32,426 bases of DNA from a candidate division FCPU426 bacterium (GTDB taxonomy: Bacteria; Oederibacteriota; Muellerivitia; Muellerivitales; Muellerivitaceae). The stretch covers positions 1 through 32,426 of the forward strand of contig PLZG01000035.1 in assembly GCA_003152075.1 (NCBI GenBank), read 5' to 3'. A model generated the notes under the pieces. The model was not told where the DNA came from, made no database searches, and was given only the letters and a program-made list of their open reading frames with translations. Position 1 is the stretch's first letter; every line of letters begins with the position of its first letter. Shown here piece by piece: positions 16,501 through 21,275 of this stretch. The position numbers were made by a program, and so were the translations under genes.

Positions 16501-17523
16501 ATGTTCAAAGACTCCCTGACCTTGCCCAAACCATTTTCCCTAGGCCTGACCCTGCTTTGCGGCCAATGCTTCCGGTGGGAAGGCCCGGATCTGGGTGGAT
16601 GGTTCCAGGGGGTTGCGGGGCGTGCTTTTTGGCGGTTGAAGCAGGAGGGCAGAGGACTTCAATGGGAATGTAGCTCGGAACTTGTTGATGGGAAGACCCC
16701 TTCGGAATGGCTTGCCCGCTATTTATGCCTGGATGACGACCTTGAGACCTGGTCCCGTTCGCTGGAAGCTGACCCCATCCTTGGCAAACCATTGAAGTTA
16801 CTCGCAGGTCTCCGGGTTCTGCGACAAGACCCTTGGGAGTGCACGATTTCCTACATGTTCGCCCAGGGTTTATCGGTTTCGGTCATCCGCAAGGCACTCA
16901 AGAAATTTTGCGTGGAATATGGCCGGTCCATCCCCGGAGCGCCTGGTTTTTACGCCTTTCCCGAGGCAAGTGCCTTAACCGAGCTTTCCCCGGACTTCTT
17001 GAGGCCCTTTACCAATAATTACCGGGCCCGGGCGGACCGGGTTATCCGTGTGGCTCGAGCGGTGGAAGCCAAGGTCATTTCTTTGGAGCATTTAAGGGGT
17101 ATTCCCTGTGATGAGGCCCGGGAAGCCCTCACGGCCCTGGATGGAATTGGCCCTAAAATCGCTGATTGTATCCTCCTCTTTTCCATGGACCAGGCATCAG
17201 CTTTTCCGGTGGATCGATGGGTCCTGAGGGCCATGAAACGATATTTTCGGTCGGTAAAGGTTCTGGGGGCCGGGGAAGAAGCCCCTACGCCGGTTCATTA
17301 CCTCAAAATCGTTCGAAAGGCCAGGGCGGCCTTTGGGGACCGTTGCGGGGTGGCCAGTGAGTACCTTTTTCTTTACTTAAGGTTACTGGAAGATGAAAAG
17401 CTCCGCCAAGAATTGACGCCCTATTGCCAAAATCCTGGCTTGTTTTTTGCGCTTTCGGAGAATTCCCATTCCTCGATTAATAGCCCAATAAATCGTACTC
17501 AAAGGCCCAGAAAGTCTTTATAA
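16501..17523 (+). CDS. ogg: 8-oxoguanine DNA glycosylase/AP lyase, Ogg1 type
   Basis: This enzyme removes 8-oxoguanine opposite C and nicks the abasic site, in the helix-hairpin-helix glycosylase superfamily. The N-terminal OGG domain is recognisable as LTLLCGQCFRW. The hairpin reads LDGIGPKIADC with Lys219 as catalytic nucleophile, and FPVDRWV carries Asp238. The Lys-Asp spacing of 19 residues equals that of human OGG1 (249/268). Length is 340 residues. ATG 16501 abuts the previous stop. The 8-oxoG enzyme most common in bacteria is MutM; Ogg1-type enzymes occur in a minority of lineages, for example Clostridium acetobutylicum. The C-terminal 40 residues are not conserved in appearance. Confidence 0.93.
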   Translation: MFKDSLTLPKPFSLGLTLLCGQCFRWEGPDLGGWFQGVAGRAFWRLKQEGRGLQWECSSELVDGKTPSEWLARYLCLDDDLETWSRSLEADPILGKPLKLLAGLRVLRQDPWECTISYMFAQGLSVSVIRKALKKFCVEYGRSIPGAPGFYAFPEASALTELSPDFLRPFTNNYRARADRVIRVARAVEAKVISLEHLRGIPCDEAREALTALDGIGPKIADCILLFSMDQASAFPVDRWVLRAMKRYFRSVKVLGAGEEAPTPVHYLKIVRKARAAFGDRCGVASEYLFLYLRLLEDEKLRQELTPYCQNPGLFFALSENSHSSINSPINRTQRPRKSL

Positions 17524-17538
17524 ATCCCACAAAAAAAT

Positions 17539-17544
17539 TATAAT
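17539..17544 (+). promoter_or_regulatory. Possible -10 element before the signalling block
   Basis: A perfect TATAAT lies 54 nt before the response regulator start. The hexamer 17-18 bases upstream (about TCTTTA at 17515-17520) is a poor -35. The surrounding AT-rich stretch could give TATAAT by chance. Confidence 0.3.
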
Positions 17545-17598
17545 GAAAACATTGAGAAACACGATACCAACACTTTTCCTTCCCGAACGAGGTTCTCC

Positions 17599-19011
17599 AT
17601 GAAGCCAGTTCTTTTGATTGTTGATGATGAAGAAAGCGTTCGCGAATCCTTTCGGCTAACGCTTCAGGATGATTACAGCCTAACTTTCGCCGAAGACGCC
17701 AAAACCACCCTCCGTATTCTCAAGAGCCAATCATTCGACTTATGTCTTTTGGACATCATGCTTCCGGACGGATCGGGTTTGGATTTGTTGCGCCAAATCA
17801 AACGCCGGGACGAATCCATCGACGTCATTATGGTAACGGCGCTTACCGGGGTCGATACGGCCTTGGAAGCCATGAAAATGGGCGCTTACGACTACATCAC
17901 CAAGCCCTATAAAATTGACGAGCTTTATGAGTTGATCAAAAGGGTTCTCACCAAACGCGCCCTTCAAAAAGAAAACCGCTTCCTGCGCGAGGAAATGAAT
18001 CAGCGAAAACCCGTCAGCTTGATTGGTCATAGTAAAGCCCTCCAAGAATTGACAAAAAAAATCTCAGGGGTGGCCAAGGCTGATTTACCCGTTTTAATCA
18101 CGGGTGAAATGGGGTCTGGGGTTGAAGAGGCGGCCCGTGAAATTCACGCCCAAAGCCTTCGGGAGAAGGGGTCCTTTATTGTCGTTCCCTGCGCATCCTT
18201 TCCCAAAAACCAGCTTGAGAGGGAGCTGTTTGGGGAAGAAGGGGACGAAACCAAAAACAAGCAACCTCAAATCGGGAAATTGGAATTTGCCGACAAGGGG
18301 ACGCTCTTTTTGGACCAAGCCGACCGATTACCACTGGACCTGCAGGATAAGTTGATGAAAGTCTTCTTGGAAAAGAAGATGTCAAGGCTTGGAAGCCAAG
18401 TTCAGTTCCCATTGGATATCCGGGTGATCTCCTCAACGGACACGGACCTCCCCCAGGGTGTTGAAAAGGGAGCGGTTCGCAAGGATTTTTACCAATTTTT
18501 AAACTCTTTTTTCATTTCGATCCCGCCTTTGCGGGAACGCAAAGATGATATTCCTGAACTTCTGGATTATTTCCTTAAGATCGCCAATCAAAAGGCGAAG
18601 GTGCCGGTCAAAAATATCCAGAAAGAGGCCGTCCAATTTTTAACCCAATACACTTGGCCTGGCAACTTGAGAGAAGTGGAAAACAGCGTGGAAATGATGG
18701 TTTTATTCGCGGGTAAGGAAACACTGACCCTGGAGGACATTCCATTGGATATTTTGGTCAAGCAAATTGACTTGGCCAAGACAAAGGAAGAGGCGAAGTT
18801 ATCCCTTAAAAGGGTTCGGCGGCAATTTGAGCGGCAATATATCCGTAAAGTTTTGGAAAGGACCCGCGGCAATCAAACCCGTACCGCAGCCACCCTTGGC
18901 CTTCACCGAAATACATTGATATGGAAGTTAAAAGAACTCAACCTTGAGGAAGATTACAAGAAAATTGTTAAGAAACGCCGTGAACGCGGGGTTGGTTTTC
19001 GAAATCTCTGA
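17599..19011 (+). CDS. NtrC-like response regulator with degenerate AAA+ domain
   Basis: Domain order is REC, AAA+ sigma-54 interaction domain, Fis-type HTH, 470 residues. REC looks functional: Asp9/Asp10, phospho-acceptor Asp52, Thr80 and Lys102. The AAA+ domain is not. Walker A reads GEMGSGVEE, with Val175 replacing the ATP-binding Lys. The GAFTGA loop that contacts sigma-54 is replaced by sequence reading GDETKN and is one residue short. Walker B is LFLDQ (Asp239-Gln240) where DE is normal. Sensor I has TD for TN, and the second Arg finger region reads FYQFLN for LYYRLN. WPGNLREVEN and the HTH (NQTRTAATLGLHRNTLIWKL) are intact. It probably binds DNA under phosphorylation control without remodelling sigma-54. 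The cognate kinase follows after 86 nt. Confidence 0.93.
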   Translation: MKPVLLIVDDEESVRESFRLTLQDDYSLTFAEDAKTTLRILKSQSFDLCLLDIMLPDGSGLDLLRQIKRRDESIDVIMVTALTGVDTALEAMKMGAYDYITKPYKIDELYELIKRVLTKRALQKENRFLREEMNQRKPVSLIGHSKALQELTKKISGVAKADLPVLITGEMGSGVEEAAREIHAQSLREKGSFIVVPCASFPKNQLERELFGEEGDETKNKQPQIGKLEFADKGTLFLDQADRLPLDLQDKLMKVFLEKKMSRLGSQVQFPLDIRVISSTDTDLPQGVEKGAVRKDFYQFLNSFFISIPPLRERKDDIPELLDYFLKIANQKAKVPVKNIQKEAVQFLTQYTWPGNLREVENSVEMMVLFAGKETLTLEDIPLDILVKQIDLAKTKEEAKLSLKRVRRQFERQYIRKVLERTRGNQTRTAATLGLHRNTLIWKLKELNLEEDYKKIVKKRRERGVGFRNL

Positions 19012-19097: not shown

Positions 19098-20216
19098 TTG
19101 AACCCGATCGCCGTCCTTCAAGAACTCTTCCAGCAATTTCCCGGCCGTGAGAACAAAAACTTTAATCCCTTCGAAATTGGGAAGATCCTTAAAGCGAAAC
19201 TTGGGCTTACCCAAGCAATTTTTTTTTATCGCGATAAAGAAGGCCTGATTAATCCGGCCATAAAAACCTCGATACCGAAAAGCGTTTATAAAACCTTAAA
19301 TCAAGGATCTGATCAAAACCTTAAACCCTGGTATTGCCCCAAAAAAGTTTCTTCCGCGTGGCTTGGGTTTTGGCCGGTGAAATCCGGAATTGGTTGGGGC
19401 ACATGTTACGGGTTGGGCCGGAAAAGAAACGGGGAGGCCTTGAGCGCGGAGGAAAAAAAACTCATGGAGCTCCTGGTTGACCGAACCTCACTAGAATTAG
19501 AAACCCAGCGATTGTGGGAGAGCCTTGAACGTTCAGACCGTTTAGCCTCCGTCGGCTTCATGTCCGCTTCGATGGTCCATGAAATACGGAATCCCTTGAC
19601 CGCGTTGGGAACTTTAGTTCAGTTGTTGCCGCGGAAAAAGAACAACCCGGAGTTCATGGAATCCTTTCAAAAATTAATGCTGAGGGAAATTGACCGCTTG
19701 AATTGTTTGACCGAGACTTATTTGAATTTTTCGAAATTCAATGTGGAAAAAGCCGAATGGGTTGACCTTCACCAATTGATTGGGCAGAAAATCCAATTGC
19801 TAGCCCCCCTTTTTGCCTCCAAAAATGTCCAGTTAAAATCAGACAACCCACCCGGTCTTCGGCTAAAGGGTGATGGGACACAAATTGAAAGCCTGGTGGT
19901 GAATTTGCTACAAAATGCCTTGCAATCGGTTGGGCCTCGGGGAAAGGTGGCCATTTCGAGCAGCTTTATACCGCGGAAAAAAGACAAGGGGCCATTTGCG
20001 GAGATCAAAGTCAGGGATAACGGCCCGGGAATTACAAAGGAAAACCTGGATAAGATATTTGACCCTTTTTATTCCACCAAGGCAGATGGTACAGGGCTGG
20101 GTTTGGCCATATGTCGTAAAATCGTTGAAAATCATAATGGTTTATTGACCGCGGCAAGCCCTGCTAATGGAGGAACCCATTTCAGAATCATGCTTCCTGC
20201 CACTTTAAAAACTTAA
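19098..20216 (+). CDS. Soluble sensor histidine kinase
   Basis: This is a cytoplasmic histidine kinase of 372 residues without membrane segments. The first 140 residues look like a degenerate GAF-type sensor domain (LTQAIFFYRDKEG, GTCYGLGR). A linker helix leads to the dimerisation domain with the phospho-acceptor His161 in ASMVHEIRNPLTALG. The ATPase domain has an N box (VVNLLQNALQSV), G1 (VRDNGPGI), F box (DPFYSTKADG) and G2 (GTGLGLAI), all intact. This resembles NtrB/AtoS-class kinases that pair with NtrC-type regulators, here the gene just upstream. TTG 19098 is the start, with AAGGTGA at 19088-19094. The ligand is unknown. Base composition is more AT-rich than the dcw cluster. Confidence 0.93.
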   Translation: MNPIAVLQELFQQFPGRENKNFNPFEIGKILKAKLGLTQAIFFYRDKEGLINPAIKTSIPKSVYKTLNQGSDQNLKPWYCPKKVSSAWLGFWPVKSGIGWGTCYGLGRKRNGEALSAEEKKLMELLVDRTSLELETQRLWESLERSDRLASVGFMSASMVHEIRNPLTALGTLVQLLPRKKNNPEFMESFQKLMLREIDRLNCLTETYLNFSKFNVEKAEWVDLHQLIGQKIQLLAPLFASKNVQLKSDNPPGLRLKGDGTQIESLVVNLLQNALQSVGPRGKVAISSSFIPRKKDKGPFAEIKVRDNGPGITKENLDKIFDPFYSTKADGTGLGLAICRKIVENHNGLLTAASPANGGTHFRIMLPATLKT

Positions 20217-20284
20217 AAAGACGGTAACTAATTTGGGTTTTTTCTGGTATTTTAAAGGGGTAACTTTTTGGTAAGGAGTTGAAA

Positions 20285-20872
20285 GTGACCACAAATCATA
20301 AATCTCAAATCCTTATACTTGAGGATGACGCTTATTTTCGGAATCAATTGGAATCCTCCTGCCCTGAAATGGCTGATATTGAGGCGGTTGGAGATGTATC
20401 CTCGGCTTTAGGCCTGTTGGTTCAGCATAACTTTGACCTAATTATGGTGGATTGGCATCTTATTCAGGCTGATCTATTATCTTTTAACTCAACAATTGAA
20501 AATTTTCAGCCGAACGTGGTTTTAATGTCCCTTTTTACGGTTCCAGACCTAGCCAATGTCATCTCAGCCATGAAGTTGGGGGCGAGTGACATTATTTGGG
20601 CCGCCCAGGACCCAAAAGCCATGAAGGAAAAGATCATTGAGGCTTTATCTGTTCCAAAGCCTAAAGCCATCGCCCACTCATTCGTTTCCAAACTAGCCGA
20701 ATCACTCACCGAGAAAGCAATGACGCAAAAAACGAGCTTATTTAAGGCCCGCAGGGAGTTTTCCAGGACTTTTTTGCATCAAATTCTAACCCAACAGAAC
20801 CTGCGCCGTACCCAATTGGCAAGCTTGATGAGCGTCAGCCCCAGGACCCTTCACCGGCATTTATCGGCCTAA
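20285..20872 (+). CDS. Atypical response regulator: degenerate REC plus Fis-type HTH
   Basis: The product is 195 residues from GTG 20285, chosen because AAGGAG (20273-20278) sits six bases upstream; TTG 20279 in the same frame is too close to it. The receiver domain keeps the acidic pocket (Glu13, Asp14, Asp15) and Asp56 in IMVDWHL. It has Ser82 for the usual Thr and has lost the invariant Lys (Ala106 in DIIWAAQDP). The C-terminus is a Fis-like HTH (RRTQLASLMSVSPRTLHRHL). No AAA+ domain is present. Loss of the Lys suggests altered or phosphorylation-independent signalling. It follows the kinase by 68 nt and may be a second output or a competitor of the NtrC-like regulator for DNA. Confidence 0.88.
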   Translation: MTTNHKSQILILEDDAYFRNQLESSCPEMADIEAVGDVSSALGLLVQHNFDLIMVDWHLIQADLLSFNSTIENFQPNVVLMSLFTVPDLANVISAMKLGASDIIWAAQDPKAMKEKIIEALSVPKPKAIAHSFVSKLAESLTEKAMTQKTSLFKARREFSRTFLHQILTQQNLRRTQLASLMSVSPRTLHRHLSA

Positions 20873-20999: not shown

Positions 21000-21275
21000 T
21001 TGACCAAGAGCGAACTGCTGGGGACGTTAGCTAATGAGACTGGGCTAAAGAAAAAAGACATAGACAATGTGATGCAAGCCTTAAGAGGCACAATTTACAA
21101 GACTTTGAAGAAGGAATTCAAAATCAAGCTGGATGGTTTGGGAGTGTTTCAGTTGAAAGACCGGAAGGCCCGTATGGCCCGAAATCCTCGTACTGGTGAG
21201 ATGGTTAGCGTTCCCGCCAAGAAAGTCGTCAAATTCCGCGTTTTGAAAGATTTAAAGGAAGCTGTTCTTTCATAA
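21000..21275 (+). CDS. hup: HU/IHF-family nucleoid DNA-binding protein
   Basis: This 91-residue protein belongs to the bacterial HU/IHF family, which bends and packages DNA as dimers. Family signatures are KSELLGTLANETGLKKKDIDNV in the helical body and GLGVFQLKDRKARMARNPRTGE, spanning the GxGxF turn and the RNPxTGE tip of the DNA-binding arm. The intercalating proline is in that arm. Start is TTG 21000, four bases after a very strong AGGAGGTGG (20988-20996). It is an independent transcription unit with its own promoter and a perfect terminator. HU versus IHF subunit cannot be decided from sequence alone. Confidence 0.95.
   Translation: MTKSELLGTLANETGLKKKDIDNVMQALRGTIYKTLKKEFKIKLDGLGVFQLKDRKARMARNPRTGEMVSVPAKKVVKFRVLKDLKEAVLS

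Follow-up and report, generated by a model that had tools for sequence, protein, structure and literature searches.

A degenerate NtrC-type response regulator lacking ATPase and sigma-54 contact motifs is conserved across a bacterial order

The window (the whole 32,426-nucleotide stretch of DNA that was analysed) encodes NtrCd, our name for a degenerate response regulator of the NtrC type. NtrCd is probably a phosphorylation-controlled, sigma-54-independent DNA-binding regulator that keeps its AAA+ domain as an ATP-free scaffold. It almost certainly cannot act as a sigma-54 activator. A preliminary description of the window had suggested that selection favours another mechanism, one that dispenses with sigma-54 and uses the AAA+ domain as a scaffold, and this suggestion is supported by losses throughout the clade, purifying selection, conservation of the receiver (REC) and helix-turn-helix (HTH) domains and the presence of rpoN.

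Domain Structure and Motif Losses

The NtrCd reading frame runs uninterrupted over 470 aa, as had been described, and matches Response_reg, Sigma54_activat, AAA_lid_14 and HTH_8 in Pfam, each above its cut-off (Table 1). The order of its domains (REC, AAA+, lid and Fis HTH) and its phosphorylatable-type REC are those of NtrC, and a score of 148 bits against PF00158 (cut-off 20.2) places its AAA+ domain as a homolog of those of sigma-54 activators. Scores against the NCBIfam equivalogs were below cut-off both for NtrX (NF051870, 356.8 against 600 bits, the best NCBIfam score) and for NtrC (TIGR01818, 346 against 558.6 bits).

Table 1. Positions in the window of NtrCd, its domains and adjacent features.
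Feature	Position	Strand	Remarks
Conserved promoter-like element GAAAGTCTTTATAAA...TATAAT	17510..17545	+	Noncoding in G001, G002 and G007
NtrCd, degenerate NtrC-type response regulator	17599..19011	+	REC 1-118, linker, AAA+ 141-311, lid 312-390, Fis HTH 403-449; Pfam, alignment, AlphaFold2
NtrCd receiver domain	17599..17952	+	Phospho-acceptor set D9/D10, D52, T80, K102 unbroken
NtrCd AAA+ and lid	18019..18768	+	V175, Q240, D281, F300; GAFTGA absent
NtrCd Fis-family HTH (HTH_8)	18805..18945	+	Best-conserved part of the protein
Cytoplasmic sensor histidine kinase	19098..20216	+	HisKA and HATPase_c; HEIRNP box intact
REC-HTH protein, pseudo-receiver	20279..20872	+	197 aa, no AAA+
HU-family DNA-binding protein gene	21000..21275	+	TTG start; listed as gene context, no functional link implied

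NtrCd lacks the features by which a bEBP is recognized: the Walker A Lys, Walker B DE, sensor I Asn, Arg finger and GAFTGA loop. Its Walker A reads GEMGSGV175E where GESGTGKE is expected, and loop 1 reads LFG-EEGDETKNKQ in place of LFGHEKGAFTGA, so that GAFTGA is missing. The Walker B DE has become DQ (LFLD239Q240), the sensor I Asn is replaced by D281, and VRKDFYQF300L stands where FREDLYYRL is expected, the Arg finger being Phe300. Residue alignment thus agrees with each substitution listed in the preliminary description, including the replaced and shortened GAFTGA loop, and with its statement that the REC catalytic residues and Fis HTH are intact. Its broader claim that every ATPase and sigma-54 motif is lost went too far, since this copy still has D239 of Walker B, R294 as the first residue of the Arg finger and R358 of sensor II; each of the three is missing from some NtrCd orthologs.

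We compared eight full-length NtrCd orthologs with an alignment of 52 other homologs, in which 48 AAA+ and lid columns are at least 93% conserved. K175, R300 and the F and A of GAFTGA are each 100% conserved across the 52 homologs; among the eight orthologs K175 is retained in one and the other three in none, while sensor II R358 is retained in 3/8. Over all conserved AAA+ and lid cells the orthologs retain 285 of 384, and the core glycines and packing residues of the AAA+ domain are mostly kept in all eight. Judged from these columns, the motif losses exceed chance. Because the losses fall on functional positions and the structural residues are kept, we conclude that the fold is retained with its motor chemistry gone.

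An AlphaFold2 prediction made from a nine-sequence alignment gave a mean pLDDT of 83.4, with all AAA+ elements predicted and AAA+ blocks mostly at 82-92, falling to 67-75 near the missing loop 1. The closest folds in the PDB were Brucella NtrX and Aquifex NtrC1.

Distribution, Selection and Sister Group

The source genome is 4.1 Mb in size and 99.97% complete. The phylum, which is uncultivated, was sampled with 45 genomes, nine of which, in two families, belong to the order. An NtrCd ortholog with an open frame was found in each of the nine, which are independent assemblies. The GAFTGA loop is missing from 9/9 orthologs, and the catalytic Glu and Arg finger are missing wherever the sequence is complete (L025 is a C-terminal fragment without the Walker A region). 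One ortholog, L024 (G008), has Lys at the Walker A position, but within GSHKK instead of GTGKE, and both of its Walker B acids are altered. Elsewhere the replacements at position 175 are hydrophobic (V, I or M) and differ between lineages. A same-genus contig (candidate division FCPU426, L049) encodes a protein identical to L021. The preliminary description had named intact motifs in sister genomes as the finding that would tell against it; none were present, and the eight other order members have losses of the same kind, which rules out recent decay and an error of assembly.

The rpoN gene, which the preliminary description had proposed to look for, is present in the source genome and throughout the order (9/9), so the motif losses are no by-product of losing sigma-54 and rpoN loss is ruled out as their cause. 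PF00158 has 17 matches in the source genome: NtrCd, 11 better-preserved paralogs at 211-248 bits, L013 and four weak matches. Most of the 11 carry all motifs. One of them, L011 (G000:C81:17399-20896), has a Walker A of GERGMGEE (Lys to Glu) and GAFPGA for GAFTGA, with the Walker B DE kept. L013 (G000:C111:12750-16166) consists of a PAS-like N-terminus, AAA+ and HTH; its GAFTGA loop is deleted, its Walker B reads LDG and its Walker A Lys is kept (GEKGTGKK).

Domain identities were determined from five close genomes, with a canonical NtrC-type paralog of the same five as control. In NtrCd they were 87.5% for REC, 68.6% for AAA+, 83.9% for the lid and 96.5% for the HTH plus tail, against 92.0, 94.7, 87.1 and 97.3% in the paralog. 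The AAA+ is therefore the fastest-changing domain of NtrCd, and the relaxation is confined to it. Synonymous sites were saturated in most pairs, making dN/dS unusable for them; in the unsaturated pairs the AAA+ dN/dS was about 0.12-0.17, and the domain is therefore under purifying selection and no relic.

In a FastTree phylogeny the NtrCd clade has a support of 1.0 and a long branch, and its sister is a group from the same phylum, with moderate support (0.858). Members of that group (L028, L029, L031-L036) retain the Lys of Walker A, the Asn of sensor I and the two residues of the Arg finger, and have a loop 1 of GAFTSA, GSFTSA or GAFSSA and a Walker B of DD. They are the nearest relatives by tree, yet their gene neighbours differ from those of NtrCd where checked, and orthology of the two by neighbourhood is unsupported. 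Many NtrC-type regulators, both in this phylum and in the Elusimicrobia, have GAFTSA or GAFTDA in place of GAFTGA and are otherwise intact in their ATPase motifs (L028-L036, L050-L051, L037, L041-L047).

The combination in the sister group of an intact Walker A and Arg finger with a GAFTSA-type loop is suggestive, though no proof, of a sigma-54 contact that was altered before the ATPase was lost. We tentatively propose, as a possibility still somewhat short of an even chance, that NtrCd represents an order-wide, complete conversion of an NtrC-type motor regulator to a response regulator that works without ATP and became fixed along with a kinase and a pseudo-receiver partner, the latter without AAA+ and of similar HTH type, and that sister families preserve a form plausibly halfway there (GAFTSA and Walker B DD in an otherwise intact ATPase). 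If this is true, living lineages of one phylum record how sigma-54 activation was lost step by step.

The Three-Gene Unit and Its Upstream Region

NtrCd is the first gene of a three-gene unit, followed by a cytoplasmic histidine kinase and a REC-HTH pseudo-receiver. The kinase adjoins NtrCd in every order genome whose contig extends that far, and the trio is linked wherever the contig allows, including in G004 and G005, where it is kept although synteny with the flanking cell-division and glycosyltransferase genes has been lost. G006 has its REC-HTH gene on a separate contig. The module of G004 and G005 adjoins several other two-component genes, and its kinases there (L132, L133) are without most of the N-terminal sensor region. 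An HU gene, 78-93% conserved, follows the module wherever the ancestral synteny persists.

The REC-HTH protein is predicted to consist of a REC, a long helix and a helix-turn-helix, the last with a weak match to HTH_8 (best 18.9 bits, cut-off 22). Within the phylum it is restricted to this order. Its acceptor Asp is found in 7/8 orthologs, being absent from the most distant one (L136), and the conserved Lys is gone from all aligned orthologs.

Upstream of NtrCd, five genomes share a block, GAAAG(G/T)CTTTATAA, 89-104 bp before the gene. A spacer of 17-18 bp separates CTTTAT from a perfect TATAAT in the five genomes, and a AAAGNCTTT palindrome conserved in all five occupies the -35 position upstream of TATAAT. 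This geometry is sigma-70-like, and a strict sigma-54 site was absent from the eight upstream regions examined. The upstream glycosylase gene ends before the element in G001, G002 and G007, so its conservation there is not due to coding and an artefact of the glycosylase coding end is ruled out in these three. When whole genomes were searched with the element, near matches did not rise above a reversed-pattern control, and the search yielded no set of binding sites. In four of the five genomes an exact copy is present solely upstream of NtrCd, and the element may consequently be an autoregulatory operator or just the gene's own promoter; the position of the palindrome weakly favours an operator.

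Proposed Function and Alternative Explanations

The loss of the motor parts, with REC and HTH almost unchanged, suggests that NtrCd probably regulates by simple DNA binding and not by driving sigma-54. We envisage that, its AAA+ motor having been abandoned, NtrCd would be phosphorylated at REC D52 by the adjoining kinase, that phosphorylation would alter its dimerisation or oligomerisation, and that the Fis HTH would then bind DNA at its target sites. It would work at ordinary sigma-70-type promoters, probably including its own, as a repressor or contact activator; we infer that either role could apply and that oligomerisation through the AAA+ domain may continue. The AAA+ fold would stay as an ATP-independent connector, ATP binding being unlikely with the Walker A Lys lost. 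The REC-HTH pseudo-receiver, with its similar HTH type, probably either joins NtrCd at its sites as a partner or competes with it there. For PspF E108Q, a Walker B E-to-Q change is described that by itself leaves the protein competent for remodelling (PMC4132715).

An unlikely alternative is that NtrCd modulates active bEBPs, as an inactive subunit in mixed AAA+ rings with one of the 11 paralogs or as a competitor for enhancer sites. The genome does hold rpoN and these better-preserved paralogs, the HTH is of NtrC type, and all eight orthologs retain the AAA+ fold together with several of its core positions. However, the AAA+ surface has diverged rapidly (69% identity within a family), as would hardly be expected if a hetero-ring interface were conserved; the Arg finger and the Walker sites, from either side of the interface between subunits, are lost; and the nearest homologs come from other families of the phylum and not from co-resident paralogs. 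We consider it quite unlikely that the remodelled pocket binds another ligand, such as c-di-GMP or a metabolite, making NtrCd an ATP-independent allosteric sensor. FleQ, VpsR and VfmH bind c-di-GMP through their AAA+ domains (PMC10723142, PMC10714721), and the Walker A glycines of NtrCd persist despite the loss of the Lys, but the orthologs show no sign of a new, conserved polar pocket and the residues that replace the Lys are hydrophobic and lineage-variable.

It is highly improbable that NtrCd is a dispensable paralog on its way to becoming a pseudogene, or the product of an assembly error. The AAA+ domain does evolve faster than the remainder of NtrCd, as would be expected of decay, but the frame is open in nine independently assembled genomes, the dN/dS at unsaturated sites is low, the HTH is nearly invariant, and the losses are common to two families and hence old.

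Sigma-54-independent DNA binding by NtrCd, the reading that we prefer, has consequences for annotation: assignments based on PF00158 label NtrCd a sigma-54 activator, and it inflates the number of activators counted in phyla of this kind. NtrCd also offers a natural experiment on the role of the AAA+ domain in an NtrC regulator once ATP and sigma-54 contact are unneeded, in genomes where sigma-54 is still used elsewhere.

Comparison with Known Systems

The best fold match of NtrCd, NtrX (NF051870; Brucella abortus 5m7n/5m7o/5m7p), shares its REC-AAA+-Fis architecture, and the Brucella chain likewise has a loop 1 without GAFTGA. Unlike NtrCd, NtrX keeps a Walker A of GAGKE and a Walker B of DE and was crystallised with ATP or ADP. 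The kinase of NtrX, NtrY, has a membrane-bound layout, which the NtrCd kinase lacks. The companion REC-HTH protein resembles regulators of the ActR/PrrA/RegA type in combining a REC with a Fis-like HTH without AAA+, but differs from them in that its REC is without the conserved Lys and its HTH_8 match is under the cut-off.

TyrR, DhaR and VpsR have a different N-terminal domain or no phosphorylation control. Together with HupR and YplP, they are bEBP paralogs that have lost the sigma-54 contact through deletion or substitution, and the GAFTGA-less TyrR, DhaR and HupR are sigma-70 dependent (PMC3162934); the literature here agrees with the preliminary description, which had cited TyrR and HupR as known activators without GAFTGA. 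What the cited work describes for these five proteins is a defect in GAFTGA, and not the loss of a whole ATPase set as in NtrCd. The NtrC proteins of Rhodobacter capsulatus and Caulobacter, also without GAFTGA, act at sigma-70 promoters, with the REC Asp being important, and they keep and need their Walker residues and need ATP binding (PMC10274813). Loop 1 is lost in these proteins and in NtrCd, whereas the Lys, catalytic Glu and Arg finger are lost in NtrCd.

Precedent for action at sigma-70 promoters is solid, and that for an ATP-free AAA+ domain is thinner, as the Rhodobacter and Caulobacter proteins still need ATP binding; the Lys-less NtrCd would stand one step beyond them, without direct precedent in the cited literature. 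GAFTGA-less relatives of NtrC are thus already known. NtrCd goes further than the cited cases, and than the 52 comparison sequences and the phylum surveyed here, in that GAFTGA, the Walker A Lys, the catalytic Glu and the Arg finger have been lost jointly and throughout an order in which sigma-54 is retained.
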